Assembly: GCA_002748755.1 (NCBI GenBank)
Contig: PDTD01000023.1
Location: 1-64,000 of the forward strand
Reading direction: 5' to 3'
Source: Desulfobulbus propionicus
GTDB lineage: Bacteria; Desulfobacterota; Desulfobulbia; Desulfobulbales; Desulfobulbaceae
Length of the DNA: 64,000 nucleotides
In this document: positions 1,156 through 60,786 of the stretch, piece after piece
Position numbering within the stretch: the stretch's first letter is position 1
Layout: each line of letters opens with the position of its first letter
Program-made: the position numbers and the translations under genes
The notes under the pieces: generated by a model
The model's database searches: none
Seen by the model: only the letters and a program-made list of their open reading frames with translations
What the model was told of the DNA's origin: nothing

Positions 1156-2136
1156 TGGTTAACTAATAGCAGGTATAGACCTACAGCACGTGGGATCAGG
1201 GTGAGACGCCCGGTGTGTAGGGAGCTTTTTTCTTGGTTTCGCAGTATATTTTGCAACACTTCCGGTCAGCCCTGATACGCTAACAAAATGAAGTTGGCGC
1301 AAATACTGGAGTTGATCCAACTGTGCGCAACCTGCCAACTGATGCCACAGTACTCTGTTTGAAGACCTTGGTGCCACTGAAATTGTTATATTTTCCCCCC
1401 GGGGCCAACCAGGGGAAAACCTTTGATTTGCGTTTTTATCTGTTTCTCAGCAGTTTTTCTCCATGCAGAAAACGAAATCAACAGACCGCAGAATGGTACA
1501 AGCAGCATGTGAGGCGGTGGGTCATTCTTGTTAACAGAAAAATAACACCTATTATGGTTGAGGTCCAGCCGGTGGATGGCGGATATGATATATTTTTGCC
1601 TTTGAGCGGAGAGCATACAGCTGCAAGGGCGGGTTCCGCGAGCGGTTGTTCAGGCTGATCGCGTCGAATAGGTCCTGCCTAGCCCGGATTTCTTATCAGC
1701 GCAGGTGGTGCCCGATTCGGGAGTCTTTGGTCCTCATGATGCTTGGGTGTGTGTATGGCCAAAATACTACTGAAGATGATACCTCCTGGACTGAATTTTG
1801 GTTAACATTTTGTCGAAATGTGAGCCGACTCACGGACGGCACAGAGAACTGTTTACGTCTTTTTTTCTCAAACGAGACAAAATGTTCATGTGAAATCAGG
1901 GCTAGGCTTCCCATGGAAGGATGTGTAGTCCTGTAGCTATTGTTGCGTCAGTGGTGTGTACTCAATCGTCATGACAAGATTCGCTCTCAACATGTGGGTA
2001 ATACTGACCACCTTCTTTGTGCCTCTCCCTGAATATAAAGATTGTCAAGAAGGCAATGGAACTATATGTTGTCTGCTGAAATCGTCATTGGGACGATTAC
2101 GATTTATACAGATGATGCAGGAAGAGGGAGGACAGC
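1156..2136. other. Intergenic region with one full dispersed repeat
   Basis: No gene is supported across these 980 bases. The stretch contains a complete copy of the dispersed repeat family (1680-1904). Nearer upp there is a short perfect inverted repeat in the presumed leader (AATCGTC at 2080-2086, GACGATT at 2092-2098). Confidence 0.5.
1680..1904 (+). repeat. Dispersed repeat, full copy (R1)
   Basis: About 225 bp bounded by inverted ends: TAGCCCGGATTTCTTATCAG on the left and a right end close to ATGAGAAATCCGGGCTA (here with two changes). Inside are words shared with the other copies: GCCAAAATACT, CTGAAGATG, TCGAAATGTGAG and AACGAGACAAAATGTTCATG. It has no coding capacity. Size and ends fit a non-autonomous, MITE-like element, but the parent transposon is unknown. 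Confidence 0.75.
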
Positions 2137-2763
2137 ATGGCTGTTTATGCAATAGAGCATCCCCTGGTTCGCCACAAACTGGGCTTGCTCAGGGAGAAGA
2201 ATATATCAACCAAGAACTTCCGGGAAATTGCCTCGGAAATAGGCATGTTGCTGACCTACGAGGCCACCCGGGGGCTGCCAGCCGAGAAGGTGACCATTGA
2301 ATGCTGGTCAGGAGCAGTACAGGTTGATCGGATTAAGGGGAAGAAGATTACTATTGTCCCTATCTTGCGGGCCGGCCTTGGCATGATGGATGGGGTACTG
2401 CAAGCTGTACCTTCGGCAAAGGTTTCCGTGGTCGGTCTGTACCGAAACGAAGAAACCCTCCAGCCTGTAGCCTATTTTGAAAAATTGGTTCAGGATATCA
2501 GTGAACGCAAGGCTATGATCCTCGACCCCATGCTTGCCACAGGGGGCACCTTGATCGCCACCATAGACATGTTGAAAAAGGCCGGCTGCAAGGATATTAT
2601 CGGTCTGTTTCTGGTGGCTGCCCCGGAAGGAATAGAACGCCTTCAGGAAGCGCATCCCGATGTTGACATTTATGTCGCTGGTGTTGACGACAGCTTAAAT
2701 GAACAGGGATATATCCTGCCTGGATTGGGTGATGCTGGAGACAAGATTTTCGGCACCAAATAG
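2137..2763 (+). CDS. upp: Uracil phosphoribosyltransferase
   Basis: Converts uracil and PRPP to UMP in the cytoplasm, the key step of uracil salvage. At 208 aa it has the usual family length. The PRPP-binding loop DPMLATGGT sits at residues 130-138, and the C-terminal uracil-binding segment with [11 protein letters not shown] is present. The ATG is preceded at good distance by a GGGAGG ribosome-binding site. The uracil permease gene follows on the same strand after about 370 bases, so uptake and salvage are probably co-regulated even if not tightly co-transcribed. Identification is secure from sequence motifs and full-length similarity to the family. Confidence 0.97.
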
Positions 2764-3137
2764 TCAGGTCCTGAGTTTGGTGAGGTGTACGTCTGTTTTT
2801 TGATCACGTTAGTTGTTACAGATCAAAATGCAGCAGGAGGTGTATCTGTCCGGCAGCTGCGAAAACAGAAAGAGAAGGCGGAAATTGTGTTTGACAGGGA
2901 GAGTGCGTTTTCTGCTTTTTGACAAAAACCTGTCTGTCTTCTGGTCATAAGAGATGGTATCTGGTATGTAAACACAGGCTATCAATAATCAGAGAAGTCA
3001 GAGTAATACCAAACCTCAGACAAGATGCGTTGGGAGAGGCTGGTTTCTTGCCATTGCTTCTTTTTTTGCAACAATGTGTAAAGAATATGATTCCAGGCAG
3101 TACGGATTCAGGATGGAATAACCCAAAGGAGTACACC
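2764..3137. other. upp-uraA spacer
   Basis: A 374-base spacer. No open frame with a ribosome-binding site is seen. TTGACA-like words occur around 2890-2925, so a separate promoter for uraA is possible but no well-spaced -10 could be pinned down. Confidence 0.35.
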
Positions 3138-4379
3138 ATGAGTAGGGAGCAAAATGAGCTTGATCTGGCCAGGCAGATTCTAGTGGGGATGCAGATGCTG
3201 TTTGTGGCCTTTGGCGCCTTGGTGCTGGTGCCCATCCTGACCGGCCTGGATCCTAATGTTGCCCTGTTCACCGCTGGGGCGGGAACGTTGCTGTTTCAAG
3301 TGGTTACCAGACGCCAGGTGCCTATTTTTCTGGCTTCCAGTTTTGCCTTTATTGCCCCGATACAGGCTGGGGTCAAGGAATGGGGCATTCCGGCCACAAT
3401 GAGTGGGTTGCTGGCAGCAGGATTGCTCTACGTATTGCTCGCTGGTGTGATCAGATTACGGGGACGGAATATAATCAAAAAAATACTACCTCCGGTGGTC
3501 GTCGGCCCGGTTATAATGGTCATTGGTCTGAATCTAGCGCCGGTGGCCGTGAGCATGGCTCTTGGTAAGGCCGGCGGGGGCGAAATGCAGGGAACTGCCG
3601 TCTTGGTGGCCACAATTGCTCTGGTTGCCACCATCCTCGCTTTTATGCTGGGCAAGGGAATGATCAGATTGATTGCCATCCTTATTGGCATTACCGCCGG
3701 TTACTTGGCGGCCCTGCCGCTGGGCATGATCGACTTAGCGCCTGTGTTTACGGCGCCCCTATTCGCCACGCCGCATTTTGTGACCCCAGAATGGCACTGG
3801 CAGGCCGTCTTTTTTATTGTTCCCGTGGCTGTTGCGCCAGCCATTGAGCATATAGGCGACATGCTCGCCATCAGTGGTGTTACGGGCAAAAATTATCTTG
3901 AAAAACCCGGGTTACATCGTACTCTGATGGGAGACGGCCTGGCCACTTCTCTGGCTGCAATGCTGGGTGGACCTCCAAACACGACTTACTCGGAGGTCAC
4001 CGGTGCTGTCACCCTGACCAGGGCATTTCAGCCCGCAATTATGACCTGGGCTGCGGTGACGGCCATTGTGCTATCTTTTTCCGGCACCTTGGGTGCTCTC
4101 CTGAGGACCATCCCCACGCCTGTTATGGGCGGAATTATGATACTGCTGTTTGGTACAATCGCTACAATCGGCATGAGTACCCTGGTCCGGGAAAAAGTGG
4201 ATTTGTCTCATCCGCGTAACATGGTTCTTGTCAGCCTGATTTTAGTCTGCGGCATCGGAGATATGGCCCTTGGGGTCCAAGGATTTGTGGTGCAAGGGAT
4301 CGGGTTGTCCGCCATAGTGGGCATTGTACTGCATCTTGCACTTCCAAATAGAAGCGTATCTAGCCAGGATTTCACCTGA
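3138..4379 (+). CDS. uraA: Uracil/xanthine permease (NCS2 family)
   Basis: An inner-membrane nucleobase:proton symporter of the NCS2 family, 413 aa with about 12-14 hydrophobic segments. Family hallmarks visible are the early VPILTGLDPNVALFTAGAGT block, the EHIGDMLAISG segment, and GGPPNTTYSEVTGAV near residue 280, which contains the NxTTYxE substrate motif typical of uracil-type members. The frame is open for 73 codons further upstream, but the ATG at 3138 is chosen because AAAGGAG lies seven bases before it and the membrane domain begins just after. Following upp, it most likely imports uracil for salvage. Its TGA stop abuts a short relic of the dispersed repeat (about 4380-4405). Confidence 0.93.
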   Translation: MSREQNELDLARQILVGMQMLFVAFGALVLVPILTGLDPNVALFTAGAGTLLFQVVTRRQVPIFLASSFAFIAPIQAGVKEWGIPATMSGLLAAGLLYVLLAGVIRLRGRNIIKKILPPVVVGPVIMVIGLNLAPVAVSMALGKAGGGEMQGTAVLVATIALVATILAFMLGKGMIRLIAILIGITAGYLAALPLGMIDLAPVFTAPLFATPHFVTPEWHWQAVFFIVPVAVAPAIEHIGDMLAISGVTGKNYLEKPGLHRTLMGDGLATSLAAMLGGPPNTTYSEVTGAVTLTRAFQPAIMTWAAVTAIVLSFSGTLGALLRTIPTPVMGGIMILLFGTIATIGMSTLVREKVDLSHPRNMVLVSLILVCGIGDMALGVQGFVVQGIGLSAIVGIVLHLALPNRSVSSQDFT

Positions 4380-4435
4380 ACATGTGTCTCATTTGAGACA
4401 ATATTTTTTAAACCAGTACGGGGGCAGGGTTGATC

Positions 4436-4885
4436 ATGATTGTCTATGAGCTTGCATGCACTTGCGGCTGCCAGTTTGAAGGCTGGTTTTCTGATCGCTC
4501 CTCTTTTGAGAAGCAACTCTCCCGCAGTTTGATTACCTGCCCAGAGTGTCATGGCAGGCAGGTGCACAAAATTCTGTCACCAGTGGCTTTTCATGCCCAT
4601 TCTTCATCGGTATCAGATCCTGTCCATGCCCCAACGGCCAAGGCGGAAGACGTTTTTCGGCAGGAGGTGGTACGCTACCTAGCATCTGTTGGCCGTTTTG
4701 TGGAAGAACATTTTGAAGATGTGGGCACGAAACTGGCCGTAGAAACTTTGAAGATGCACTACGGGGTGGAAGAGAAACGTAACATCTGCGGGGTGGCGAC
4801 CGAGCAGGAAGAGGAAATGCTGGAGCAGGAAGGTATACAGTTGCTTAAGGTCCCGTATGTGAAACCAGATCCGAAATCCAATTGA
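4436..4885 (+). CDS. DUF1178 family protein
   Basis: A protein of about 149 aa matching the DUF1178 family, whose molecular function is not known. It opens with a zinc-ribbon-like half: Cys pairs in CTCGC (near residue 9) and TCPECHG (near residue 37), which probably form one metal site. A linker and an acidic helical C-terminal half follow (EEHFEDVGTKLAVE, then EEKRNICGVATEQEEEMLEQEG), which is the conserved part of the family. The ATG at 4436 is preferred over the TTG six bases upstream because GGGGCAGGG gives a ribosome-binding site at suitable spacing. It converges on the glycosyltransferase gene, so it is probably monocistronic. Confidence 0.85.
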   Translation: MIVYELACTCGCQFEGWFSDRSSFEKQLSRSLITCPECHGRQVHKILSPVAFHAHSSSVSDPVHAPTAKAEDVFRQEVVRYLASVGRFVEEHFEDVGTKLAVETLKMHYGVEEKRNICGVATEQEEEMLEQEGIQLLKVPYVKPDPKSN

Positions 4886-4977
4886 CTTGGATGGTGCTGT
4901 TTTTTGCTGTTGCGTAAGTGGCTGGGCGAGCCTAATGTGTCAGTACAGCAAACGCATGGGAAATCCAGGCTACAGGA

Positions 4978-8003: not shown

Positions 8004-8445
8004 AAAGCAGGGACCAAAGGAAAAAGGAAAGAGGAGGTTGTCTCATATTCTGATGATACTACATCTGAAAAAGGTGGTCAAAGAAAGGAATCATTATTCC
8101 TTCCGTCCAGGTATCTCATCAGCTCAGGGTGGTGCCAGGTTCGGTAGGTTTTGGTACCTTGCTATACTTGGTAGATGTGTTGCCAAAGTACTGCCGAAGA
8201 TGGTACCGCCTGGGTTGAGCGTTGGTGCACAGTTTGTTGAGATTTCAACTTGCTCATGGAAACCACATCCATCTGTTTTTGTATGTTTTTTCTTAAAAGA
8301 GACACAAGGTTCATGAGAAATCCGATTAAGCACGACAACCTGTTCAGCCATTCTGGTCTGTCCATGGGCCTCCCGGGAGTAGTAGATCGGGCCAGCGGTC
8401 ATGCCGCAGACACACAGTTTTCAGGGAGTTGGGCTTCGATACCCT
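8004..8445. other. Intergenic region with a full dispersed repeat
   Basis: A 442-base gap between the starts/ends of two minus-strand genes. It holds repeat copy R2 (8104-8330) and no supported gene. Confidence 0.5.
8104..8330 (+). repeat. Dispersed repeat, full copy (R2)
   Basis: A full-length copy with a degraded left tip followed by TATCTCATCAGCTCAGG, the shared words TGCCAGGTTCGGTAG, GCCAAAGTACTGCCGAAGAT and CACATCCATCTGTTTTTGT, and the right end TCATGAGAAATCCG. Aligned by eye it matches R1 and R8 over its whole length. Confidence 0.75.
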
Positions 8446-14423: not shown

Positions 14424-14619
14424 TTGGTTCGTCTCCTGTGCCGTTTGCTGAAGCCCTTTACCTCTCATCCGCGTTTGCTTTCCTGGATGTCGCTTGCATA
14501 TGTTGGCTTCTTTAAGCAAACATACATCAAACAGAATCAAGGGCTGTACTGAGGAGTAATTCGGGCTACAGCAAACCAGCATGGATTGAGGTTTTTTGTC
14601 AGGCTGCATGTGGAGAGTA

Positions 14620-26157: not shown

Positions 26158-26519
26158 ATTATCAGCTTGTTGCGGATGGCCCGGGTGGGCAAGAAACTGA
26201 CTTATTCCGACTAATACTTACCACTGAACGAGAGAATGGGTTATGATGGGGCAGCAAAGAGCAGGTGAACAAGAAGAAAAGGTGGAGTGGTGCAAAGGGA
26301 TGGGCAATACTGAAAATGAGACCTTGTGTCTCATCTAAGCTGAAAATTTTCCCCAACCCCGGGCCGGAGCAGCTGAAAAAGAAGGGGGATTGGGCAGTAA
26401 AACAAGTGTTCAGACGAGAATGGGGTATTTTGTTACATTCCAGGTACGATTTGTGTCAATTTGTCCCGTCCTTGTCCGTTCGCTGGCTCTCGCAGTGGCT
26501 GGACATAAAACTTATCTTG

Positions 26520-26611
26520 ATTTGAATAAAAATATAGAAAAACAGGTAGATGTGATGATGTACAACAGTCTCGACTCTTGCCAAAACATGCATGAGAAAT
26601 CCGGGTTAAGC
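26520..26611 (-). repeat. Dispersed repeat relic at the tupC stop (R13)
   Basis: A decayed copy whose recognisable end reads, on the minus strand, TAACCCGGATTTCTCATGCA. The first three bases (26606-26608 on the plus strand) are the stop codon of tupC. Internal words are largely lost. Confidence 0.5.
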
Positions 26612-30395: not shown

Positions 30396-30825
30396 ACAGC
30401 AAAATCCTCTGGCTGGGTATACTCCTTCGTGCAGTAGTAATAGTCTATCATGGCAGAAATGGTTAGTTTCCGTCAATATTTTAGTCGAACCTGCGGGCGA
30501 TTATTCCGAAAACAACCAAAAATAACCAAAATTAACACCTGCGCCGTTGTGTTGCACCTCCACCAGTCCACTCTAGGTCCGAGCCTGCATTTCTAATGAC
30601 TCTTTTATGGAAATTAAGATATAAGGTATAAAGACCATGAGCGAGAAAAAAGAATTTGTACACAATTTCTCCAAAATGTTTACCAAAGGTCAGTAAAGGC
30701 GGTACCATTTTTAACGGTATTTCGGCAATATATATATTCAGGTAGAATGTACTGCCAGGCATACCTAAAAATGACGCCGCCTGAGTTGATGAGCAATTTG
30801 GGGGTAGGACGAAAGGAGACGCCAG
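30396..30825. other. Divergent control region between regulator and hesA-like gene
   Basis: A 430-base divergent spacer. It contains an A-rich near-direct repeat (AACCAAAAATAACCAAAAT around 30514-30532) that could be an operator. No gene is supported here. Confidence 0.4.
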
Positions 30826-31509: not shown

Positions 31510-31600
31510 CCCGGATTTTTCATCAGCTCAGGAATTACCAGTTCGGTGGCTTCTGGTAGCCCATTATAGGCAGGTGTGGTGGGTACCAAAAAAATAATGT
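31507..31600 (+). repeat. Dispersed repeat, left part only (R3)
   Basis: Begins TAACCCGGATTTTTCATCAG and continues with the internal words AGTTCGGTGGCTT, then decays after about 95 bases; no right end is seen before moeA-PBP. The first three bases serve as the stop codon of the hesA-like gene. Confidence 0.6.
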
Positions 31601-37940: not shown

Positions 37941-38149
37941 ACCCGGATATCTCATGAGCATGTTGTCTCATTTGAGAGAAAAAAAGCAAAAAGAGATGTA
38001 AGTTCTGTTGGTGTGTAGGTTGAACTTTCGACAAGCTGTTCACCCAATGCCAGCCTAGGCTGTATCATCTCCGGCAGTTTTTTTGGTACCACATGTATCC
38101 AACCATAATGGGTTACTTAAAATTGCTGAATCTGGCGCTACCACTACCC
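37941..38149 (-). repeat. Dispersed repeat, reverse orientation (R4)
   Basis: Right end first in plus orientation (ACCCGGATATCTCATGAGCA), then TTGTCTCATTTGAGAG, TTCGACAAGCTGTTCACCC and TGGTACCA. It ends near CTGGCGCTACCACTACCC, where the outer tip of the left end is missing. Confidence 0.65.
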
Positions 38150-39857: not shown

Positions 39858-40117
39858 GATTGATGAGTGGCGAAATATCGACAAGTTAGCAAAATACATT
39901 GTGATTTGATCAAGTCAATCTGACCTTATTAAAAGAGATTTTGGTCTTTTGGGCGAGGACGGCATAGGAAAGATGGTTTTCAAAATCCCAATGGTAGCCT
40001 GATTGGGGCTTGTTGGGTCTAATTGACCCGTCAAGAGGGCATAATGGGACTAAATTATCTGGTACAGACTCTTTGGCTTTTTTTTTTCGATTATCCATCT
40101 TGACTTCTGGTGCAGAA

Positions 40118-40214
40118 GTATGTCGAAAAGTGAACCTGCTCACGAACATTGCATACATTTATTTTTGCCCATCTTTTCTCGAACCTGACAAAATGTTGAT
40201 GAGAAATTGGGGGT
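40118..40214 (+). repeat. Dispersed repeat, right part only (R5)
   Basis: Carries GTCGAAAAGTGAACCTGCTCACG and ends with GACAAAATGTTGATGAGAAA then GGGGGTA. It abuts the left end of the next copy at the shared TAG. Confidence 0.6.
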
Positions 40215-40360
40215 AGCCCGGATTTTTCATCAACTTATCAACTTAGGTGGTGGTAGATTCGCTAGTTGTTGGTAACGCATTGTATGAGGATAGAGGTGTT
40301 ACCAAAATACTGCCGAAGATGGGTTCGCCTATGCCGACCTTGGGCTCAACTAGCAAAGCT
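40214..40360 (+). repeat. Dispersed repeat, left part only (R6)
   Basis: Starts TAGCCCGGATTTTTCATCAA and carries TTACCAAAATACTGCCGAAG and a GGGTTCGCCT segment. The right half is missing before the ABC permease gene. Together with R5 it makes a head-to-tail junction. Confidence 0.6.
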
Positions 40361-42229: not shown

Positions 42230-42885
42230 AGGCTATCTCACCTGTATTTTTAACGATTATGGTGGCTTTGTTGAGGGAAAACACATTCTCCAGTATTCGC
42301 AATACGGTCATCACCCTCGAGCAACGTTTTGTGTTCTCTGGGGGATTGGTTGTGTTATAACAGCAAGTCAAGGAGAAAAGGATCAAATGAACAAAACGCA
42401 CCCAGATCAGGTACAGTACCGCGCATAATAACGGCACAATACACGTATGAAGGTTCTGAGATCCCAAGTCTGAGCAGTCATGCCGACCCGGGATATCGGA
42501 GATATTTGGGCTGGGATGGTTACGCCACAGTGGGACCAGTCCGGCTTTCTCATGAACATAGTGTCTCATTTGTGAAAAAAAATACAAAACATGCGTATGT
42601 GCTATCCGTGGTCTCACATTTCGACAAACTGTTCACCCAAGGTCAACCCAGGCAGTACCATCTTCAGCAGTCTATTGGTAACACCTTTACCCAAGTATCC
42701 TGAGCTACCAAAAACTACCGAACCTGGCACTACCTGAGCTGACGAGTAGTCCGGGTCAGGAAGGACGTATCGTGGAGGGCGTTTCCCCGGAAGGGGGGAA
42801 CTGTTGTATCAGGTGGTGTATCTGCAAGCAAAGGCAGAATGGTGCCACTCCGATTTGTCCTTGGCTGTGATCGTCTATTGTTGGC
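42230..42885. other. Intergenic region between permease and binding protein
   Basis: A 650-base gap inside the transporter locus. It contains a full dispersed repeat in reverse orientation (42538-42757). No gene is supported. The gap means the permease may have its own promoter. Confidence 0.45.
42538..42757 (-). repeat. Dispersed repeat, full copy, reverse orientation (R7)
   Basis: In plus orientation it runs from GTCCGGCTTTCTCATGAACA, through GTCTCATTTGTG, CACATTTCGACAAACTGTTC and GGCAGTACCATCTTCAGCAG, to CCTGGCACTACCTGAGCTGA and AGTCCGGG. It separates two genes of one ABC transporter. Confidence 0.75.
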
Positions 42886-43713
42886 TTAGGGCCACATTTC
42901 AATGCTTTCGGTCATGGGGAAAGGTGTTTCGCTGTCTGGACCGAACCATTTGTTGTAAATTTTCATGTAGGTGCCGTCTTTCCAGATATCCTGGATGGCA
43001 AAATTTATCGCGTCCCTCCAGGCGCTGTCATCCTGAGGTAGGCCCACGCCGTAGGGTTCGTCGGAGATGAACGTACCGACCAGTTCATATTTTCCGGGGT
43101 CCTTGGCGGCCAGGGCAATGAGCAGCGTGGAGTCTGTACTAATTGCCTGGACACGTCCAGAGCGAAGGGCCTCGAACATTTCCACCTCATTTTGGTACCC
43201 GGTTACCTTGGCGTTGGTGTCGCCCAGTTTTTTCATGTAGGCTTTGGCATTGACGATGGATGTGGTTCCCTGCATGGAACCGATTTTTTTCCCTACAAGC
43301 TCCTTGACCGATTTGACAGTGCCTGCCGGAGCCAGGAACTTTTGACCGTCAAAAAAGTAGGTGATGGAAAAATCGATTTTTTCGTCACGCACCCGCTTGT
43401 GGGTCATGTTGGCCAGGACCATGTCAACCTTTGGCGGATTGGTCTGGACAAAGGAGATGCGGGTCTTGTTGTTCACAACCACAGGCTCGAAAGAAACCCC
43501 CAGTCGCTTGGCAATCTCCTTGGCCATGTCCATATCAAAACCCACCCACTCGTTGTTGGCATTGATAAAACCAAAGGGTTTCCCTTTATTAGTAATACCT
43601 GCTTTGACGATTTTGTCCTGCATCACCCGATCATAGGTTGCGCCGGCCAGCGTGAATTGTACGCTGACAACGATCAGAAATACTGATAAAAAGGTAATCT
43701 TTATGCATTTCAT
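42886..43713 (-). CDS. Polar amino-acid ABC transporter substrate-binding protein
   Basis: A periplasmic binding protein of 275 aa with a signal peptide (start KCIKITFLSVFLIVVSVQF, cleavage near LAGA). Family 3 solute-binding features include ITNKGKPFGFIN, GFDMDMAKEIAKRLGV, FVQTNPPKVDMVLANMTHKR, KKIGSMQGTTSI and EPYGVGLPQDD. GAAGGGAG precedes the ATG. It is preceded by the ATPase gene (110 bases) and followed after 650 bases by the permease. The ligand is most likely a polar or acidic amino acid; the pocket cannot be read with confidence. Confidence 0.93.
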   Translation of the reverse strand: MKCIKITFLSVFLIVVSVQFTLAGATYDRVMQDKIVKAGITNKGKPFGFINANNEWVGFDMDMAKEIAKRLGVSFEPVVVNNKTRISFVQTNPPKVDMVLANMTHKRVRDEKIDFSITYFFDGQKFLAPAGTVKSVKELVGKKIGSMQGTTSIVNAKAYMKKLGDTNAKVTGYQNEVEMFEALRSGRVQAISTDSTLLIALAAKDPGKYELVGTFISDEPYGVGLPQDDSAWRDAINFAIQDIWKDGTYMKIYNKWFGPDSETPFPMTESIEMWP

Positions 43714-43823
43714 TCGTTTTCTCCCTTCTTGTAGGTGAATGTTTTGAGAGGATAGTGCTGCGACATTATCCTGTTATGCGGCATCTAGGACCGAAGGTTA
43801 CCACCGGAACCTAAACTAAGCCA

Positions 43824-44567
43824 TCAATGACTGAGTATCTTGCTCAGGAAATCCCTGGTTCTCTGGTTGTTGGGCTGGTTAAAAAAGAACTCCGGCGTGT
43901 TTTCCTCTACCAGTGCTCCTTCGTCCATAAAAAACACCCTGTCGGCCACTTCACGGGCAAAGCCCATTTCGTGGGTCACGCAGATCATGGTGATACCTTC
44001 CAGAGCCAGTGATCTCATGACATCAAGCACCTCGTTGATCATCTCAGGATCCAAGGCACTGGTCGGCTCGTCAAAAAGCATGATTTTAGGCTGCATGGCC
44101 AAGCTTCTGGCAATGGCAACACGTTGCTGCTGACCACCAGAAAGTTGAGAGGGGTAAAAGTCTGCCTTGTCTGGGATGTCGACCTTGTTGAGCAGTTCCA
44201 TGGCAATGGCAACAGCCTTTTTGGGGGCCATACGCCGAACCAGGGTTGGGGCCAGAGTAATATTCTCCAAGACGGTCATGTGTGGATACAGATTGAACTG
44301 TTGAAAAACAAAGCCCACTTCAGCCCGGAGGTGGGTTATGTTTGTTTTGGGATCATTGACATCCATGCCGTCCACCGTAATGATTCCTGCCTGGATTGGT
44401 TCAAGTCGGTTAATACATCGAATCAGGGTGCTTTTTCCTGACCCTGATGGCCCACAGATAACAACCACTTCCCCTTTTTCAATGGTCAGGTCAATATCGG
44501 TGAGCACTTGAAAATCACCATACCATTTACTGACACGTTCAAAGCGTATTAGTATTTCTTTGTTCAT
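43824..44567 (-). CDS. Amino-acid ABC transporter ATP-binding protein
   Basis: A GlnQ/HisP-type ATPase of 247 aa. Walker A is [15 protein letters not shown] near residue 37, the Q-loop lies in [16 protein letters not shown], the signature is [16 protein letters not shown], Walker [15 protein letters not shown], and the switch histidine CVTHEMGFA. It is the first gene of the transporter set. Confidence 0.95.
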
Positions 44568-45946: not shown

Positions 45947-46171
45947 CTCCCGGATTGTTCGTCAGCTCATGTAGGGCCTGGTTCGGTAGTTTTTGGTACC
46001 TCAAAATAATTGGGTATATGGGTTGCCAATAGGCTGCCGAAGAGGGTACCGTCTTGGCTGAGCGCTGGTGCTCATTTGGTCAAAATGTGAGACCGCTGAC
46101 AGACAGCACATCCATCCGTTTTGTCTCTTTTTTTGCAAACGAGACAAAATGTTCATCACAAATCCGGGCTA
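45947..46171 (+). repeat. Dispersed repeat, full copy (R8)
   Basis: One of the best-kept copies: left end CTCCCGGATTGTTCGTCAGC, inner words CTGGTTCGGTAGTTTTTGGT, GTTGCCAATAGGCTGCCGAA, TCAAAATGTGAGACCGC and ACATCCATCCGTTTTGTCTC, right end GTTCATCACAAATCCGGGCTA minus its last base. Confidence 0.75.
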
Positions 46172-46201
46172 TATAAGCCAGAAGAATGTGCTTCCAAAAC
46201 G

Positions 46202-46242
46202 CCCCTATCTGGCATTACCTGAGCTGGTGAAAAATCGGGGCT
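46202..46242 (-). repeat. Dispersed repeat, left-end fragment (R9)
   Basis: A 41-base piece in reverse orientation, CTGGCATTACCTGAGCTGGT followed by GAAAAATCGGGGCTA, about 30 bases after R8. It looks like a nested or recombined remnant. Confidence 0.5.
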
Positions 46243-49735: not shown

Positions 49736-50063
49736 ATTGAACATATTGTCTCATTTCTGGGGACAGCTATAGTACATTGCTACCCATGATGCTCCGTTGG
49801 GAATCTGACGTTACGAGTGACGCTTTTTTATGGGTTTTCCCAATTTGGGTAGGCAGGTCTGTGCTTTGGATTGGCATGATCATTGAGCGAGACAAGAGAA
49901 AAACGATTGTCTTTCCAGTGAATTTACAGTACTAGGTCGACTTTGGTTGCAACGGCAGACTGTAGATACTGATTGATGCCCAGGCGCCATGCGCTGCTTT
50001 GCAGAGCATGGCGTTGGCTTGAAATACTCTTCTGGCCAGATACTACGTTTAGGATAAAAAGCT
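49736..50063. other. nadA upstream region
   Basis: 328 bases with no gene. It presumably holds the nadA promoter. A repeat-like word (AACATATTGTCTCATTTCTG) near 49741 hints at an eroded repeat copy. Confidence 0.35.
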
Positions 50064-52526: not shown

Positions 52527-52750
52527 CCTAACCTGGATACTTGATGAGTTCAGGCTATGCCAAGTTTGGGAGTTTTGGGTGCCGCATTATACGTGGGTAT
52601 ATGTGTTGCCAAAACCCAGCCGAAGATGGGCTGTCTGCGCGACCTTTGTACACAGTGTATCGCATCTTTGTTGCCTTGTTTGGCGGCCACAGACTTTCCA
52701 TGGATTTGTATTTATGGCGTATCTACAAACAAGACGCAATGTGGATGGGC
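52527..52750 (+). repeat. Dispersed repeat, degraded copy (R10)
   Basis: The left half is recognisable (ACCTGGATACTTGATGAGTT, GTTGCCAAAACCCAGCCGAA, GATGGGC). The right half keeps only weak similarity (CCATGGATTTGTATTTATGG). It is the most eroded of the long copies. Confidence 0.5.
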
Positions 52751-52857
52751 AACGCAGTTTACTTCTTGAACTATACGATAATCTTGACGTAATTGCTTGG
52801 GATTTTTCGAGCCAAAAGCTGTTGGATCGGCTCTCTTTCCCGCAACACCATCCAGAA

Positions 52858-52913: not shown

Positions 52914-55079
52914 TTATTCAGAGCTTTGCGGCAGGTACTGCGTGAGAGGACAGCTCATACAGCCTTTGCCTGGCAGGTCTGTGTTGTCGTGAATTTTGGA
53001 GATGATGTCGGCCACGGCATCTTTGGTTTCGGCGTAGAAGTTCTCCTTGCCGATTTTTTCAAAGAGTTGGGTCCGCTCCATTACTTCCAGGATAGGGGCT
53101 TTGGCATTGCACACGGCAAAGCCCAGTTGAGCGGAATGCATCCGGTCAACAATCAGGGCAAGTTCTTCCTCACCCGAGGCGTCAATGTCGTTGATACCTC
53201 GTGCGTCCAGGAGGATATATCGCAGATCCGGCATGTCGTTGCGGAATTTGATAATCTGCTCATCCAGATAACTGGCGTTGGCAAAAAACAGGGCGCCGTC
53301 AAAGCGAACCACAGCGATGTGGCGGCATCCGCGCAGGCGATAATGTTCCATGCTCTGCAGGGATTTGTCTTTGTACATGGACAGTTTCGCCACCACTGGA
53401 TGCATGGAACGATAGAGAAAAACACCCATGGACAGGGCGACACCGACCATGATGCCTTTATCCAGATGGGGAGCGTATGCCAGGGTGACAACAAAGGTGA
53501 TGACTGAGATGATGCCGTCGTGTTTTTGTGCCTTGTAGGCATGTATAAAGCCCTTGACGTTGACCAAGCCGATAACGGCCATCATGATGACGGCCGCCAG
53601 GACCGCCTGGGGCAGGTGGTAGAGCAAAGGAGTCAGGAAGAGCAAGGTGACCAAAACCATGATACTGGTGAGGACACTGGACACACCAGATATTGCGCCG
53701 GCCTGCAGGTTTACGGCAGAGCGGGAAAAAGATCCTGAGACAGCATAGGATGAGCCTATGGAACCCAGAATATTGGCCAGGCCCTGGCCGATCAACTCCT
53801 GATTGGGATCCAGTTTTTGACCGGTCTTGGCGGCCATGGCCTTGGCAATGGCAATGGCTTCCATGAAGCCCAGCAGGGAAATGATAATCGCTGTGGGCAG
53901 CAGTTTGAAAAAAGAATCCAGGCTGAGATGAGGTACTTTGAAGGTGGGCAGGCCTTTCGGGATTTTTCCGACTATAGCGCCGCCACCTGTGAGCAGTAGT
54001 GCATCGGTGGCGAGTGGTGTGTTCCCCACCTTTATTCTCCAGGTTCGCCTGTCGGTTTTTATGTCTGTGGGCAGGTTCTCCTTGGGATAAAAGGTATACC
54101 TGCCTTCAGACTCAATACCTTCAAACTTGAGCCCGCGCAATTTTTTACGCAGTAGATGGCTCTGGTGTTTTACCTTATCGATTTCAGCGGTGAGCAGGGC
54201 AATCTTATTGTTCAGTTTAATCACCTCGATGGAGGGACCGTGGTTGCCAGAATCATTTTTTTTCAGCCCGTCGAGTTGTTTTCCTACATCTGCACGGACA
54301 CTGCCCAGGCGTTTTATCTCTTCGATACTGCTATTAAACTGAATAACGGTTTCTTCCAATCCCTTTAGTTGTACTGCCGTAATTTTAACCGTGGCATCAT
54401 GGTTGAATCCTATCAGGTAGGAGATGCAGGTGGTGATGGCCACTGCTACCAGTACGTTGGGGATTCTCGGATTTATTTTTCGGAGAAGCAACATAATACC
54501 AACTGCACCAACGCCGAAAGCCAAGGTGGGCCAGTGTGTATAATCAAAGGCGGCCTTGGTAACCCTGATCATGGTTTCATAATGGTGGGGCGCCTTGTCC
54601 ACATAGACTCCGAAGAATTTCGAGAACTGTGACGAGGCAATGATGATCGCAGCTGCATTGGTAAATCCGTTCACCACTGGATGTGAGAGAAAGTTGACCA
54701 CCATGCCGAGGCGGAGTAAGCCCAGGGAGAACTGGAAAATCCCCACCACCAGGGCCAGTAGGATGGAGTAGGCAATGAACTCTGAGCTACCTGCGGTGGC
54801 CAGGGGCTCCAGGGAAGCTGCGGACATGAGGGAAACGACAGCAACCGGTCCTGTCGCCAGCTGCCGGCTGGAGCCAAACAGGGCCGCTATCATGGGGGGC
54901 AGAAAAGCCGCATAGAGTCCGTAATACGCTGGCAGGCCTGCAAGTTGTGCATAGGCCATGGATTGAGGAATAAGGACGAGGGCAACGGTTAAGCCTGCAA
55001 GAATATCCACCTGTAAGCTTTTGGCCCCATAGCCTTGAAACCAACCAAGAAAGGGAAAAAATTTCGTGAGTAGTCGCAT
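52914..55079 (-). CDS. SulP-family anion transporter with coiled-coil insertion
   Basis: A SLC26/SulP inner-membrane anion transporter of 721 aa. The N-terminal Sulfate_transp signature is QSMAYAQLAGLPAYYGLYAAF near residue 39, then SSRQLATGPVAVVSL. The C-terminal STAS domain spans about 590-695 (IAVVRFDGALFFANASYLDE, LLDARGINDIDASGEEELAL). The odd feature is an insertion at about residues 225-375, between membrane segments: it has heptad-like stretches (IQFNSSIEEIKRLGSV, LNNKIALLTAEIDKVKHQ) and a small charged domain. Most SulP proteins lack this. The C terminus ends with CMSCPL. Sulfate or bicarbonate are the common substrates of the family; substrate is not decided here. Confidence 0.9.
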   Translation of the reverse strand: MRLLTKFFPFLGWFQGYGAKSLQVDILAGLTVALVLIPQSMAYAQLAGLPAYYGLYAAFLPPMIAALFGSSRQLATGPVAVVSLMSAASLEPLATAGSSEFIAYSILLALVVGIFQFSLGLLRLGMVVNFLSHPVVNGFTNAAAIIIASSQFSKFFGVYVDKAPHHYETMIRVTKAAFDYTHWPTLAFGVGAVGIMLLLRKINPRIPNVLVAVAITTCISYLIGFNHDATVKITAVQLKGLEETVIQFNSSIEEIKRLGSVRADVGKQLDGLKKNDSGNHGPSIEVIKLNNKIALLTAEIDKVKHQSHLLRKKLRGLKFEGIESEGRYTFYPKENLPTDIKTDRRTWRIKVGNTPLATDALLLTGGGAIVGKIPKGLPTFKVPHLSLDSFFKLLPTAIIISLLGFMEAIAIAKAMAAKTGQKLDPNQELIGQGLANILGSIGSSYAVSGSFSRSAVNLQAGAISGVSSVLTSIMVLVTLLFLTPLLYHLPQAVLAAVIMMAVIGLVNVKGFIHAYKAQKHDGIISVITFVVTLAYAPHLDKGIMVGVALSMGVFLYRSMHPVVAKLSMYKDKSLQSMEHYRLRGCRHIAVVRFDGALFFANASYLDEQIIKFRNDMPDLRYILLDARGINDIDASGEEELALIVDRMHSAQLGFAVCNAKAPILEVMERTQLFEKIGKENFYAETKDAVADIISKIHDNTDLPGKGCMSCPLTQYLPQSSE

Positions 55080-55721: not shown

Positions 55722-55982
55722 GACCAGGAATATTCGTCGTAATTATTTGACTGAGTATTCATTCAGCTTGTACTGATGTTCAGGTGTTTCGTCAAACAAT
55801 TTTTCACGGTAGCAGTTGAAATGATGAAAAAAGATATTTTTCCTTATGCTTTTTACAGGTTGTTATTTCGTACGATATCGGTACTGGAGCCCCTTTTTAT
55901 TGCTGCTCATTGTGATGACCTGACTCTTTTTCCAGACATGCCACCAGAAGGATTTCTGGCTAGTGAGCAACCTCACATTTTG

Positions 55983-56034
55983 ACCCAAGGGGCATCCATG
56001 GCCAGCCCATGGATACATCTTGGGTGCTTTTTTT
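55983..56034 (+). terminator. Rho-independent terminator with no obvious gene
   Basis: A two-part stem: ACCCAAG (55983-55989) with CTTGGGT (56019-56025), and ATCCATGG (55994-56001) with CCATGGAT (56007-56014). A run of seven T residues follows. No supported plus-strand gene lies upstream. Confidence 0.75.
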
Positions 56035-56082
56035 AGAAAATCAGCTCCTTCCTTAGAAGGTGAGGATCGATTTGGGATTTCC

Positions 56083-56110
56083 CCGTATTTCTCATAGGTT
56101 CAGACATTGC
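56083..56110 (+). repeat. Dispersed repeat, left end of a split copy (R11a)
   Basis: CCCCGTATTTCTCATAGGTT resembles the family left end CCCGGATTTCTCATCAGC. It lies about 400 bases before the matching right half, with the group II intron remnant between. Confidence 0.5.
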
Positions 56111-56149
56111 CGGGTACTGCAACTGTACGGGGTGACGAACAGAGATCGG

Positions 56150-56512
56150 GTAGAAGGCGCATACCTCGGGACGAGTCTGCTGGGTAGGATAAAGTCCTCT
56201 ATCCATTAAGGGCGTATCCGTAAACCCTGCACTCACGTACAGAAAGACATGTGTTTATCCCAGGAGGCCCGTTTGAGAAGTCGCGTGCGAAGGAATTTCG
56301 GCTGAGGAGCAAGTAACTGCTCTTGACCGCACTGGAGAAGTCAGCAGAGGAGGGAAATGATAATGCCAAGGAGGAAGTGTGTACTTGTGAAGAGAACGCC
56401 ACAGCCGCTGGAACTCTTTGCTGCGTCGCAGTCAGCCGAACCGCCTTGGTAGGTGATCTGTATGCCGGGTGCTGTGGGAGGGCTCCACAGTAATGGGGAG
56501 TCCTATCCCGAT
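56150..56512 (+). mobile_element. Group II intron remnant (3' part, no ORF)
   Basis: The 3' end is recognisable. A domain V-like segment starts GAACCGCC at 56438 and runs to GTGCTG. Domain VI (about 56476-56509) pairs GGGAGGGCTCC with GGGAGTCCTATCCC and leaves a bulged A as the branch point, 8 bases before the intron end ATCCCGAT at 56512. Upstream motifs GTCAGCAGAGG and GTCAGCCGAACCGCC are also typical. No reverse transcriptase is encoded, so it is internally deleted. The 5' boundary is not certain. Confidence 0.6.
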
Positions 56513-56614
56513 TGAAATTTGAGACCGCTCACCGATATTACATACATGTGTTTTTATGAATTGTTAGCTTACATGTTAAATGGGACAAAATCTTCATGAG
56601 AAATCCGAGCTAGA
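56513..56614 (+). repeat. Dispersed repeat, right half of a split copy (R11b)
   Basis: Begins directly at the intron 3' boundary with TGAAATTTGAGACCGCTCAC, continues with TACATACATGTGTTTTT and ends GACAAAATCTTCATGAGAAA then TCCGAGCTA. It corresponds to the right half of R8. Confidence 0.65.
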
Positions 56615-56940: not shown

Positions 56941-58089
56941 ATGGCCATTACCAAGTTTGCCGTCCCAGAGATTATTTTTGGACGCGGAAGTTTAAATTAT
57001 GCCGGGCTCTGTGCCCGCAGGCTGGGAGCGAATAAGGTGTTCCTGGTAAGCGATCAAGGTATCGAAGAGACCGGTTGGCTGGAGCGTCTGATGAATATCC
57101 TCAGTAAAGAAAAAATTGAGTGGGTGTACTATCCAGGCGTGACCTCCAATCCTCGGGATTTTCAGGTGGAGCAGGGTGCCGAGATGTATCTGAAGAACGG
57201 AACTGATGTTATTATCGCCATTGGCGGCGGTAGTCCCATGGATACGGCAAAGGGCATAGCCATACTGGCTGGCAACGGCGGAAAAATACGTGATTATGAG
57301 GGGGCGAACAAGGTCCAGCGTCCACTGCCGCCCATGTTGTTTATTACCACCACAGCTGGAAGCGGTTCTGACGTGTCCCAGTTTTGTATTATCACCGATG
57401 TGGACCGAGGTGTCAAAATGTCTATAATTACCAGGACACTGGTCCCCAATATCTCCATTGTCGATCCCTTGATTCTGCGCACAAAAAGTGAAACCTTGAT
57501 CATTCAGTCAGCGGTGGATGCACTGTCCCATGCCATTGAGGCCTATCTTTCCCGTATCGCCTCACCTTTTACAGAAATGCAGTCTCTTAAGGCGATTGAG
57601 CTGATATATCGTCATTTACCGTGTGCAGTGGAGACGAAAAACCTTGATGCCCTGGAACAGTTGAGCTCTGCGGCTGTTTCTGCATCCATGGCTTTTAGCA
57701 ATGCGGGACTTGGGGCTGAGCATGCATTGGCCCATTCCCTCGGGGGACACTTTGATATGCGCCATGGGGTTATTCACCCAATACTTTTGACCCAGTTCAT
57801 GCGTTTTAATATGAAGTTCTGCATCGAAAAAATGGCTGGGGTCGGTAAGATACTGATGAACAAAGAGAAAGGCCTGGACGTTGATCTTGCCCATGCGGGT
57901 ATTGATGCCCTGAACGATTTTTTTGCTTCTTTCGATGTGCCGCAGCGGTTGAGCGACATCATTGACGAGCAAGGCAGACAGTACCTGGAACCAATCTGCA
58001 AAATGGCGGTGCATGATGTTTGTAATCTCACCAACCCTCGTCCTGCATCCTGGCAGGAGTTTTATAAAATATGTGAGGAGGTATGGTAG
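56941..58089 (+). CDS. Iron-containing alcohol dehydrogenase (second copy)
   Basis: An Fe-ADH of 382 aa. The nucleotide site is IGGGSPMDTAKGIA near residue 95, the metal histidines lie in VDALSHAIEAYLS and HALAHSLGGHFDMRHGVIHP, and TTAGSGSDVSQFCIITD is conserved. It is a clear paralogue of the enzyme at 38585-39766 but well diverged. GAGGAGT precedes the ATG. The histidine kinase gene starts at the next base after its stop codon, so enzyme and two-component system form one operon. It probably makes or consumes an aldehyde that also concerns the AOR enzymes. Confidence 0.95.
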   Translation: MAITKFAVPEIIFGRGSLNYAGLCARRLGANKVFLVSDQGIEETGWLERLMNILSKEKIEWVYYPGVTSNPRDFQVEQGAEMYLKNGTDVIIAIGGGSPMDTAKGIAILAGNGGKIRDYEGANKVQRPLPPMLFITTTAGSGSDVSQFCIITDVDRGVKMSIITRTLVPNISIVDPLILRTKSETLIIQSAVDALSHAIEAYLSRIASPFTEMQSLKAIELIYRHLPCAVETKNLDALEQLSSAAVSASMAFSNAGLGAEHALAHSLGGHFDMRHGVIHPILLTQFMRFNMKFCIEKMAGVGKILMNKEKGLDVDLAHAGIDALNDFFASFDVPQRLSDIIDEQGRQYLEPICKMAVHDVCNLTNPRPASWQEFYKICEEVW

Positions 58090-59283
58090 ATGATTCCAAC
58101 CACTACTTTGCATGATTTGATAGGTATTGAGCATTGTAAACAGGGATTCTACCGGGAGCTGCAACAAAAAGTTGAGCTGCTGAAAACATCCAATATAGAG
58201 TTGGAGAAAAAACGAAAGGAAATGCAGGCCGTCCTTGATGGCATCACCGACATGATGGCTGTTTTGAGTGAGGATTTACGCTTCCAAGAGGTGAACCATG
58301 TTTTTCAAGACTGGTATGAGGATGTGGATCCCGTGGGGCGGTACTGTTATGAGGTGTTCAGGGGCAATCTCTCCGTCTGCAATGACTGCCCGGCCTTACG
58401 TTCTCTGGACCGGGACGAGATTGTCAAGGATCGCTGTATTTACAGAGTGCATGGTAAGTTCCGCCAGTTTGAGATCATTGCTTCACCTTTGCGATCCGAA
58501 CCAACTGGCGAACGGCAAGTGTTGCTCTTTAAGCGTGATGTTACCATGGAGCAAGAGTTTCAAGCCCAGTTTTATCAGGCTGAAAAGATGGCTACCGTTG
58601 GGACACTGGCAGCGGGCGTAGCCCATGAAATAAATAATCCGCTCACGGCTATCAGCGGTTTTGCCGAAGGATTGAAAAGGCGAATCAGCCGCCTTGAGGG
58701 GAAAATCGAATCCGACGATTGTGAAGATTTTAAGGAATATATCGATACGATCATCAAGGAGTGCTATCGTTGCCGTGATATCGTGCGGACCCTGCTTACG
58801 TTCAGCAGGCCGGTTTCTTCCAGCCGACGACCGGTAGATCTGAATCAGTGTGTTTCTGATACACTGTTCATCCTCAAACATCATTTCAGAGACAAGCATG
58901 ACCTGACCGTGCAGGTTATGCTTGATGACAAACTTCCTATGATTATGGGGGATGAGTCGCAGCTGAAGCAGGTTATTATCAACCTGTTGACCAACGCCTT
59001 TGATGCCACGGCAGAGGGCGGCGCCATCACAGTGCATACTCGGGAAGAGGAGAGCGGGGGGGTGCAAGTGGTTGTTGAAGACTCAGGTGATGGTATCTCT
59101 CCTGAGGTCATTGACAAGTTGTTTGAACCTTTTTTCACAACCAAGCCAGTGGGCAAGGGTATCGGAATTGGTCTGTCCACCTGCTATGCCATTGTTAACC
59201 GTCATGGGGGCGAAATAACCGTTGAGAGTACCGAGGGGGAAGGTTCGTTGTTTATTGTCACCTTACCAGGGATACCAGCATAA
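58090..59283 (+). CDS. Cytoplasmic PAS sensor histidine kinase
   Basis: A soluble kinase of 397 aa. A coiled-coil start (about 20-48), a PAS domain (about 45-150) with cysteines in VCNDCPALRSL that may sense redox state or bind a metal, HisKA with the phospho-accepting His179 in GVAHEINNPL, and a HATPase domain (about 265-395) with NLLTNAFDA, DSGDGISPE and GKGIGIGLST. No membrane segment, so the signal is internal. The ribosome-binding site GAGGAGG overlaps the end of the alcohol dehydrogenase gene. The stop overlaps the regulator start as TAATG. It is the cognate kinase of the next gene. Confidence 0.93.
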   Translation: MIPTTTLHDLIGIEHCKQGFYRELQQKVELLKTSNIELEKKRKEMQAVLDGITDMMAVLSEDLRFQEVNHVFQDWYEDVDPVGRYCYEVFRGNLSVCNDCPALRSLDRDEIVKDRCIYRVHGKFRQFEIIASPLRSEPTGERQVLLFKRDVTMEQEFQAQFYQAEKMATVGTLAAGVAHEINNPLTAISGFAEGLKRRISRLEGKIESDDCEDFKEYIDTIIKECYRCRDIVRTLLTFSRPVSSSRRPVDLNQCVSDTLFILKHHFRDKHDLTVQVMLDDKLPMIMGDESQLKQVIINLLTNAFDATAEGGAITVHTREEESGGVQVVVEDSGDGISPEVIDKLFEPFFTTKPVGKGIGIGLSTCYAIVNRHGGEITVESTEGEGSLFIVTLPGIPA

Positions 59284-60620
59284 TGGATAGAGATAGATAT
59301 TCGGTCTTGATCATAGACGATGAAGAGTCCATACGTCGTCTTATACAGAAGGAACTGGCGCAATCCCGCCGGAATGTTGTGGTGGCCGCAGATGCCTGTG
59401 AAACCATGGAGATGATTCGCGAGCATTTTTTTGATGTGATCGTTATGGATTTGCGGCTGCCAGATGTCAGTGAGCTTGAACTGTTGATCAAACTTAAGGA
59501 AACCCTTGCGCATGTCGAAATTATAATGATTACTGGACATGGGGAGGTGGATATAGCCGTAGAGGCCATGAAATTAGGGGCCTATGATTTCATTCGCAAG
59601 CCGTTTAATTTGGAGCGTCTGGAGCTGGTCGTTGAAAAAGCGCACCAAAAGGTGGTGCTGGCCAGGGAAAACGCCGTACTCAGACAACGCGCAGAAAGCA
59701 AAGATAAACCTGTTACCTACATTGGCAACTCGCATGCTGTCAGGGAGATTCTTTTTCTGGTGGAAAAAGTGGCCCCTGCGCAGATACCCGTGCTGATAAC
59801 CGGGGAGTCAGGTGTGGGTAAGGATGTCATTGCCCGGCTGATTCATCAGCGCTCGGCCTGTGCAGGAAACCCAATGATCATCAAGAACTGCGCTTCCCTG
59901 CAGAAGGAGCTTGCACGCAGTGAATTGTTCGGGCATGTCAAAGGCTCGTTTACCGGTGCCACCGACACCCGAGACGGACTTATGGCCTTTGCCCATGAAG
60001 GTACCCTCTTTCTTGACGAAATAGGAGAGTTGCCCCTGGAGGTGCAGGCCTCTCTGCTCAGGGCCCTTGAAACGCAGACCTACCGGAGAGTAGGGGAGAA
60101 AGAAGAACGGAAAGTCAATATTCGGTTTCTTTTTGCCACCAATCGTAACCTGGCGGAAGAGGTCGAGTATGGGCGGTTTAACGAGGCCTTTTTTCATCGT
60201 ATCAACGCTTTTAACATCAAGGTACCCATGTTGTCGGAGCGCAAGGAGGACCTGCCGCTACTGGTAAATTATTTTCTAACCACGCTCAGTCCAGACAATA
60301 CCTCCTTTCGCATTGTCGACAGCGCCATGAACTGCCTGTTACGCTACGATTGGCCGGGCAATGTACGCGAGCTGCGCAATGTCATTGAGCGTTCTATCAT
60401 CCTGGCGGAAAATTCCATTATCACCGAGAGATGTCTCCCCCATGAGCTTATCCTCCAGTCCGAGGGTAATGAGGATGCCTTGTCGCTGGAGTCGGTGGAG
60501 CGGAAGCACATCTTGAAAATGCTTGAGTTTTTTGACGGCAACAGGCAGAAAACAGCCGATATGCTGGGTATCAGTCGCAAGACGCTCTACAGGAAGCTGG
60601 TGAGCTATGCGACCAATTGA
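59283..60620 (+). CDS. Sigma-54-dependent response regulator (NtrC family)
   Basis: A regulator of 445 aa. Receiver domain (1-120) with the phosphorylation site Asp56 in VIVMDLRLP; AAA+ domain (about 143-375) with Walker A GESGVGKD at 174-181 and the sigma-54 contact loop GSFTGA at 221-226; Walker B GTLFLDEIGEL; C-terminal Fis-type HTH (GNRQKTADMLGISRKTLYRKL, near 420-440). It activates sigma-54 promoters when phosphorylated. Targets likely include this operon and, by inference, the sigma-54 promoters found before mop and the alcohol dehydrogenase at 38.6 kb. Confidence 0.95.
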   Translation: MDRDRYSVLIIDDEESIRRLIQKELAQSRRNVVVAADACETMEMIREHFFDVIVMDLRLPDVSELELLIKLKETLAHVEIIMITGHGEVDIAVEAMKLGAYDFIRKPFNLERLELVVEKAHQKVVLARENAVLRQRAESKDKPVTYIGNSHAVREILFLVEKVAPAQIPVLITGESGVGKDVIARLIHQRSACAGNPMIIKNCASLQKELARSELFGHVKGSFTGATDTRDGLMAFAHEGTLFLDEIGELPLEVQASLLRALETQTYRRVGEKEERKVNIRFLFATNRNLAEEVEYGRFNEAFFHRINAFNIKVPMLSERKEDLPLLVNYFLTTLSPDNTSFRIVDSAMNCLLRYDWPGNVRELRNVIERSIILAENSIITERCLPHELILQSEGNEDALSLESVERKHILKMLEFFDGNRQKTADMLGISRKTLYRKLVSYATN

Positions 60621-60632
60621 CCCAGCTGCAGG

Positions 60633-60786
60633 AGCCCGGATTTTTCATGGCCAATGGGTCTCCTTGGAGAAAAGGTATAGAAAGACAGATGTATGTGATG
60701 TCCGTGAGCAGGATCAAGTTTCGCCAAATTGTTCACCCAAGATCAGCTCAGGCGGCACCACCTGAGCTGATGAGAAATCCGGACTA
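60633..60786 (-). repeat. Dispersed repeat, internally deleted (R12)
   Basis: Right end AGCCCGGATTTTTCATGG in plus orientation, then AAGACAGATGTATGTGATGT, GTTTCGCCAAATTGTTCACC and the left end CACCTGAGCTGATGAGAAAT then CCGGACTA. About 70 bases of the family middle are missing. Its terminal triplet (60784-60786) is the TAG stop of dinB. Confidence 0.7.

Follow-up and report, generated by a model that had tools for sequence, protein, structure and literature searches.

Miniature inverted-repeat transposable elements (MITEs) are usually seen as empty hitch-hikers, and the folds that they adopt as by-products of their inverted repeats. Their transcripts form stable stem-loops, according to a review whose main text, in the available sections, does not mention IS1380 (PMC10969869). 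The IS1380 group of insertion sequences (ISs) has been used as the outgroup of piggyBac, whose own targets are mostly TTAA (PMC10813416), and compensatory changes are reported for repeats of Borrelia plasmids (PMC2674063, likewise in the part available). The window analyzed here, a stretch of 64,000 nucleotides of Desulfobulbus propionicus (G000:C38:1-64000, from an assembly of 2.0 Mb in 44 contigs that is about 91% complete), harbors a dispersed, non-coding, intergenic repeat of about 222 bp with 14-bp inverted ends. This repeat is a non-autonomous transposon, a MITE with IS1380-type ends. Comparison of its copies across the order (257 genomes searched, denoted by G numbers, with L numbers for extracted loci and C numbers for contigs of G000) makes it likely that its interior fold was kept as one strand, most simply RNA, in mobile lineages, including relatives of the repeat in other sulfur-cycling bacteria. 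Among the titles listed for the literature searched, mostly outside subscription journals, none deals with this repeat.

A MITE with IS1380-type ends

In the window, the 17-bp end word of the repeat occurs 18 times with up to three mismatches, where 0.17 occurrences would be expected, and none of 100 shuffles reaches 18. A profile of 222 positions grown from the copies matches 19 separate places of the window in full or in part, at a cut-off of E 0.01, with six matches spanning more than 200 positions. Twenty Markov shuffles plus a reversed version of the window, 21 sequences of 64 kb, yielded a single match in total, versus 29 raw window matches, which include reverse-strand matches of the palindrome. 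The family of full and partial copies in both orientations described in the initial annotation is thereby confirmed, and the copies align over their whole length rather than over their outer 20 bases only (27 copies, mean column identity of 77%). The three short relics listed there fared unequally: those near 4380 (4363-4420) and near 61990 (61999-62060) are significant, but the one near 49740 amounts to just a 31-bp match at 49738-49768 with an E value of 0.66, not above chance. Other stretches of G000 contain 87 places (44 full) in 400 kb according to the profile search, which extrapolates to roughly 435 places for the 2.0-Mb assembly. Judging in part from a window protein (52914-55079) with 80-84% identity to proteins of three Desulfogranum species, the host is a Desulfobulbales bacterium close to that genus. 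Among 80 named loci of relatives (1.34 Mb), one profile match was obtained, in Desulfosediminicola flagellatus.

As had been proposed, the copies are intergenic. With codon-scored gene calls, only one of 127 copies lies more than 25% within a gene (five genomes, copies matched over 100 or more positions), and the idea that the repeat represents fragments of a coding element was rejected on that basis. A cruder caller relying on the longest open reading frame (ORF) gave more than 20% gene overlap for 22 of 75 copies in G000 and for 3 of 22 in relatives; we take these overlaps to be shadow ORFs.

The transposon identity of the repeat follows from its ends, its target sites and an empty site. An exact search with a 16-base end word was positive in 22 of the 257 genomes, and a reversed control in none. 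The 14-bp ends, CCCGGATTTCTCAT, are also found on transposase-bearing elements of the IS1380 type in G126 and G015, and an autonomous parent family with the same ends, which the initial annotation had proposed to look for, thus exists. G126, which carries both the IS and the repeat, has two 1711-bp IS copies that are 97% identical to each other. Their 14-bp ends are perfect, and the duplications are CTAA/CTAA in one case and CTAG/CTAG in the other. In both copies the transposase is split between two overlapping frames, which join close to eight consecutive A (L200:1053-2470 for one of them), possibly reflecting programmed frameshifting or a shared defect. The first frame scores 224 bits with the NCBIfam model of IS1380 transposases, NF033539 (cut-off 180), and the second 123 bits, below the cut-off, while both pass the Pfam cut-off of PF13701. 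The single element of G015 has 1714 bp, ends with one and two mismatches, CTAA/CTAA flanks and an open frame of 471 aa; it is related to the G126 element by its DNA (69% identity over 1456 bp). G000 itself contains degraded IS pieces with the same ends (one and two mismatches) at C20:130517-131008 and C26:3-234, one of which is truncated by a contig end.

In three relatives, the 4-mers that flank the repeat are identical for 11 of 18 copies (3.9 on average after shuffling, with none of 2000 shuffles reaching 11), and in G000 for 7 of 29 copies (shuffled mean 1.9, p 0.0015); of the 51 copies that reach both ends of the profile, the remaining four were left uncounted, having ends with more than three mismatches or being the D. 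flagellatus copy. The target-site consensus is YTAR (CTAG, CTAA, TTAG, TTAA). An empty site was found for a 236-bp insertion of G004 located between two genes (L232:5044-5279, TTAG/TTAG), where G003 has none. The joined flanks align over 864 bp at 89.5%, the single flanks being 92% and 89% identical; a few bases beside the target have diverged, and the comparison involves one orthologous pair. At the corresponding place of the window, 43641-43827, there is no element match. Short and non-coding, with inverted ends, target duplications, ends common to an autonomous IS and an empty site, the repeat can thus be called a MITE without the "-like" initially attached to the term.

Beyond CCCGGATTTCTCAT, the subterminal sequence of the repeat is unlike both ends of the IS by eye, with no formal alignment, and an origin of the repeat by internal deletion of an IS1380 element was accordingly discarded. 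The copies in L119 were also considered as the two flanks of a compound element enclosing a transposase; this was rejected, as the locus holds two separate copies and no transposase by eye, no family search having been run. Still smaller elements occur, consisting of little beyond two inverted ends (L166:1468-1516, 49 bp, with TTAA on both sides; L167:1501-1534, 34 bp).

Fold, paired changes and strand specificity

The interior of the repeat is a nested fold, in which the 14-bp end stem encloses a hairpin A of about 100 nt, a mini-hairpin ACC-UUU-GGU and a hairpin B. The + strand of each of eight group consensuses (from seven genomes, G003 being in three groups) folds with hairpin A and most of this plan, and the right half folds differently in the G003c and G134 consensuses. 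RNAalifold retained just 16 pairs on an alignment of 46 copies. A structure of 69 pairs was defined by the pairs present in at least four of the eight consensus folds; in the 46 copies, 89.5% of its cells are paired, versus 85.9% after shuffling and 35-42% when the structure is slid, and 146 cells carry double changes, versus 51 +/- 6 in shuffled and 28-53 in slid controls. None of 500 shuffles equalled the compensatory signal on any of five measures, and on four of these the signal also exceeded the slid controls.

The plan is found outside the model as well. Fourteen copies from nine genomes outside it, some of which share genera with the model, mostly keep the plan despite much sequence change, and their Watson-Crick types differ on both sides in 29 of the 41 pairs of hairpin A. 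For the nine of them whose genera are not represented in the model, this is the case for 28 of the 41 pairs. Hairpin A is largely rewritten in L347 and L348, with its pairing kept.

What reads as G.T on one strand reads as A.C on its complement, and a pure DNA palindrome should therefore give both equally. This bears on the explanation that the repeat is an ordinary MITE with no RNA role, its palindromes being a feature of the DNA (cruciform extrusion, template-switch correction of the arms). MITEs often contain near-perfect palindromes, and correction of one arm by the other can look like paired changes. In line with such an explanation, the resident copies of G000 decay nearly neutrally and a second family with the same ends shows no strand bias (see below). 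In contrast, the hairpin pairs of the eight group consensuses include 35 G.T and 2 A.C cells, with G.T at 15-16 positions and A.C at 2 depending on how the pairs are defined. Pairs defined in a strand-neutral manner, from the reverse strand or without wobble, give 29 versus 2 cells and 15 versus 2 positions (p 0.0023, by positions), and the 14 outside copies 58 versus 6 cells and 24 versus 5 positions (p 0.0006, by positions). Restricted to the nine of these from unrepresented genera, the counts are 34 versus 4 cells and 15 versus 3 positions (p 0.0075). In view of these imbalances, we consider an ordinary MITE unlikely to be the whole explanation.

For the largest count, 32 of 66 matches were dropped as weaker and mostly on the opposite strand, and four G000 copies and L350 were then set apart. 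The remaining 29 copies, without G000, give 114 G.T versus 15 A.C cells and 27 versus 11 positions; adding back the four G000 copies and L350 brings the cells to 125 versus 22. One-sided changes private to the 52 resident copies of G000 served as an internal control and are balanced, with 250 G.T and 231 A.C (p 0.41). The excess of G.T between lineages and the balance in resident copies indicate that the fold was probably selected in the mobile lineage, not in the residents. The forward strand also folds better than its complement in all eight consensuses, in 43 of the 52 resident copies of G000 and in 15 of 15 delimited elements of further genomes (including L350, the ends of which are not acceptable, and one case with a margin below 1 kcal). 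Judging from these comparisons of sequences, selection probably acted on the mobile form as a single strand that folds, either RNA or one DNA strand, and most simply RNA.

A DNA strand, rather than RNA, might fold in the course of transposition or replication and be selected as such. G.T is better tolerated than A.C in DNA hairpins too, and the strand counts fit a DNA strand as well as they fit RNA. However, as far as is known, DDE transposases like this one work on double-stranded DNA, and replication would favor neither strand given that the copies lie in both orientations, which makes selection of a DNA strand very unlikely.

The second family with the same ends was found in G003. Its members have about 248 bp and arms unrelated to those of the main repeat, with identical 4-bp YTAR flanks in seven of eight copies. 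Five of the eight have the junction CTGACC-loop-GGGTGA and the rest a variant of it, within a frame similar to that of the main repeat, and seven of eight fold better forward.

Several observations weigh against the reading of the repeat as a MITE that is moved by IS1380 transposases and has an interior fold kept as RNA in mobile lineages. G.T and A.C stand at 6:8 in the consensus of the second family and at 5:9 and 7:6 in its subgroups, hence no strand bias. In the main family, laxer pairs (present in as few as two of the eight consensuses, no wobble) reduce the imbalance to 21 versus 9 positions and 36 versus 10 cells. Double changes affect 26 pairs, more than in the shuffles (16) but not more than in the slid controls (20-29). 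The groups share ancestry, so that the cells are not independent events, and the alignment of the model leans toward its own structure. No conserved + strand promoter was seen in the six of the eight group consensuses examined, and the only promoter-like pair common to them is on the minus strand, with a short spacer of 15 nt. Finally, no intact parent IS was detected by DNA in G003, G004 or G005, the hosts of less diverged copies, among the two candidates scored per genome; G003 and G005 do have PF13701 pieces, without these ends within three mismatches.

The minus-strand pair (TTGGCA or similar and TATAAT/TATGAT) lies at the tip of hairpin A in all six consensuses and points out through the left end. 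Rfam yielded no match at gathering level to the window's copies of the repeat, and three further loci gave just a chance-level microRNA match. The structured RNA that the initial annotation regarded as possible thus gains support for the mobile lineages, from strand-specific covariation between genomes, but not as a role of the resident copies.

Copies in the window, their decay and distribution

The copies of the window are listed in Table 1. Two pairs of them adjoin within a few bases at their ends (40101-40345 and 45949-46240), which suggests insertion into or beside the end of another copy. The matches at 60634-60760 and 60754-60782 are probably one internally deleted copy. In the interrupted copy, positions 133-222 of the profile match at 56513-56610, and the left end word with about 36 bp was recognized by eye. 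The group II intron fragment within it (RF02001 match at 56119-56247) replaces roughly positions 43-132 and contains no ORF of at least 120 aa. A systematic link between the repeat and group II introns was rejected, this RF02001 match being the only one in G000.

Table 1. Copies of the repeat in the window and sites of the hairpin-tip word. Rows of copies rest on the profile search; positions in the first column are profile positions (1-222).
Feature	Location	Strand	Evidence
Full copy, 4-bp duplication CTAG on either side	1683..1902	+	
Relic, positions 164-222	4363..4420	-	
Full copy, decayed outer bases	8107..8324	+	
Relic, positions 155-221	14482..14547	-	
Relic, positions 121-195	26518..26592	-	
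Full-length copy, strongly diverged	30583..30802	-	
Partial copy, positions 1-85	31510..31593	+	
Copy without the first 21 positions	37942..38142	-	
Right half, positions 111-221, 4 bp ahead of another copy's left half	40101..40212	+	
Left half, positions 1-121	40217..40345	+	
Full copy; gap between matched flanks about 570-580 bp shorter in G003 and G004	42541..42755	-	
Full copy	45949..46169	+	
Partial copy, positions 1-71, abutting the 45949..46169 copy	46171..46240	-	
Nearly full copy, positions 1-215	52532..52752	+	
Diverged partial copy, positions 80-208	55916..56033	-	
Copy interrupted by group II intron fragment	56082..56610	+	End word and profile match
Right part of copy, positions 96-222	60634..60760	-	
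Left end, positions 2-30, next to 60634..60760	60754..60782	-	
Relic, positions 160-222	61999..62060	-	
Loci with GGTAAGCGTAGACTCCGATA	L158:9756-9991, L158:15370-15605, L150:4062-4309, L152:14329-14576, L253-L264		

The decay of the repeat in G000 was assessed on 52 copies, after 104 of 156 profile matches had been dropped (fewer than 150 columns, including reverse-strand matches of the palindrome). These copies differ from their consensus by a median of 21%, with changes of 22% in paired columns, 28% in unpaired columns and 14% at the ends, and compensating double changes number 108, modestly above the shuffled expectation of 83. Given the similar rates in paired and unpaired columns and the small excess of double changes, the internal words shared by the copies mostly reflect common ancestry; the conservation seen in the window does not, therefore, imply a role there, as had been suggested at first. 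In G000 the burst is old: the resident copies are relics in decay, and the assembly contains nothing of the IS beyond fragments. The median pairwise identity of aligned copies is 76% in G000 (14 copies), 89% in G005 (14) and 88% in G004 (4), and 73% in G003, whose nine copies comprise several subtypes with a maximum of 97%. Copies being less diverged in relatives, at least some have moved more recently there than in G000. The coding DNA of the relatives is mostly about 65-84% identical to that of the window, and among the few sites compared, no insertion was shared between genomes at orthologous places.

These data also bear on the proposal that the copies are regulatory RNAs or terminators, kept at single sites for the benefit of host genes, with the transposon origin incidental. 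The intergenic position of the copies would agree with it, and so would their orientation in tandem gene contexts, 26 sense versus 50 antisense in four genomes (p 0.008). With codon-scored genes, the sense:antisense counts are 13:25 in G000, 9:9 in G005, 3:14 in G003 and 1:2 in G004, to which G078 adds 0:1; with longest-ORF genes, they are 19:19 in G000 and 2:13 in the relatives. The bias thus varies with the genome (G005) and with the gene caller (G000), and the evidence from orientation is weak. Moreover, the divergence of the G000 copies with little compensation, and the two insertions compared, which sit where relatives have none, speak against maintenance at individual sites. A host role at each site is disfavored, and we give this proposal hardly any credence.

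With a covariance model built on hairpin A (41 pairs in 114 positions), matches at E 0.001 were obtained in 33 of the 257 genomes and 17 of 69 genera; at most 14 candidates were scored per genome, so that copy counts are floors. At this threshold G001, G002, G006 and G015 have no match. L347 (64 bits) and L348 (54 bits) have acceptable end pairs, whereas none of the six weaker loci L349-L354 (43-60 bits) does; such weaker matches may be other hairpins.

In some copies, the tip of hairpin A or its vicinity holds a nearly invariant word of about 20 bp, GGTAAGCGTAGACTCCGATA. It is found in both orientations, once as three units in tandem, as well as in the family with the same ends and different arms and in further hairpins throughout the order. 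Of 11 genomes searched, seven contain it (none with the reversed control); it is absent from G000, G005, G006 and G149.

Possible role and relation to known systems

How the repeat spreads may be pictured as follows. An IS1380-family transposase would act in trans on the 14-bp ends and move the element, a cross-mobilization suggested by the shared ends, and insertion at YTAR would leave the 4-bp duplication. The + strand would then be transcribed, and the folded RNA might help the element to persist. What this RNA would do can be proposed only tentatively: it could be bound by a protein, or act on the transposase or its message.

A broader possibility, on which we are doubtful, is that of a class of transposons with a structured RNA as their only cargo, needed for them to move or to be tolerated. 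The hallmark of such a class would be conservation of the ends and of the junction (CATCAG ... CTGACC-loop-GGTGA ... TCATGAG, or closely similar versions), with interchangeable hairpins (two families, unrelated arms, one frame) and a fold kept across the order, strand-specific in the larger family.

Two stages are separable in this system, a + strand fold with RNA-like wobble between lineages and the loss of this property after insertion. This opens the question of functional RNA in MITEs to direct testing, in an order that includes culturable members and at least one genome whose copies are estimated at several hundred.

Among described elements, the ISs of the IS1380 group (NF033539, PF13701) resemble the repeat in their 14-bp ends, YTAR target and 4-bp duplication, but the repeat has no transposase gene and its subterminal sequence differs beyond the end word. 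The ERIC/IRU elements of enterobacteria are also MITE-like and intergenic, with orientation-dependent effects on transcripts (PMC2229807, in its available part). They differ by their size of 127 bp (PMC2759123) and their hosts, and the accessible portions of these papers report no strand-specific covariation for them. The CIR elements of Caulobacter and Brucella similarly have two long arms and a linker and are phylogenetically conserved; however, they are about 110 bp long, with a GANTC motif and a mobility that is unsettled (PMC2229807), whereas the present repeat has paired ends, a mini-hairpin between the arms and a known parent IS. Correia/NEMIS elements are MITEs as well, for which RNase III cleavage of stem-loop transcripts has been proposed (PMC2229807), and they differ from the repeat in size and host. 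Lastly, piggyBac elements have end motifs that mostly start with CCC and a 4-bp target of the TTAA type (PMC10813416); they are eukaryotic, and tied to the repeat solely via IS1380. The repeat is thus a bacterial MITE linked to the IS1380 group, which has served as outgroup of piggyBac.

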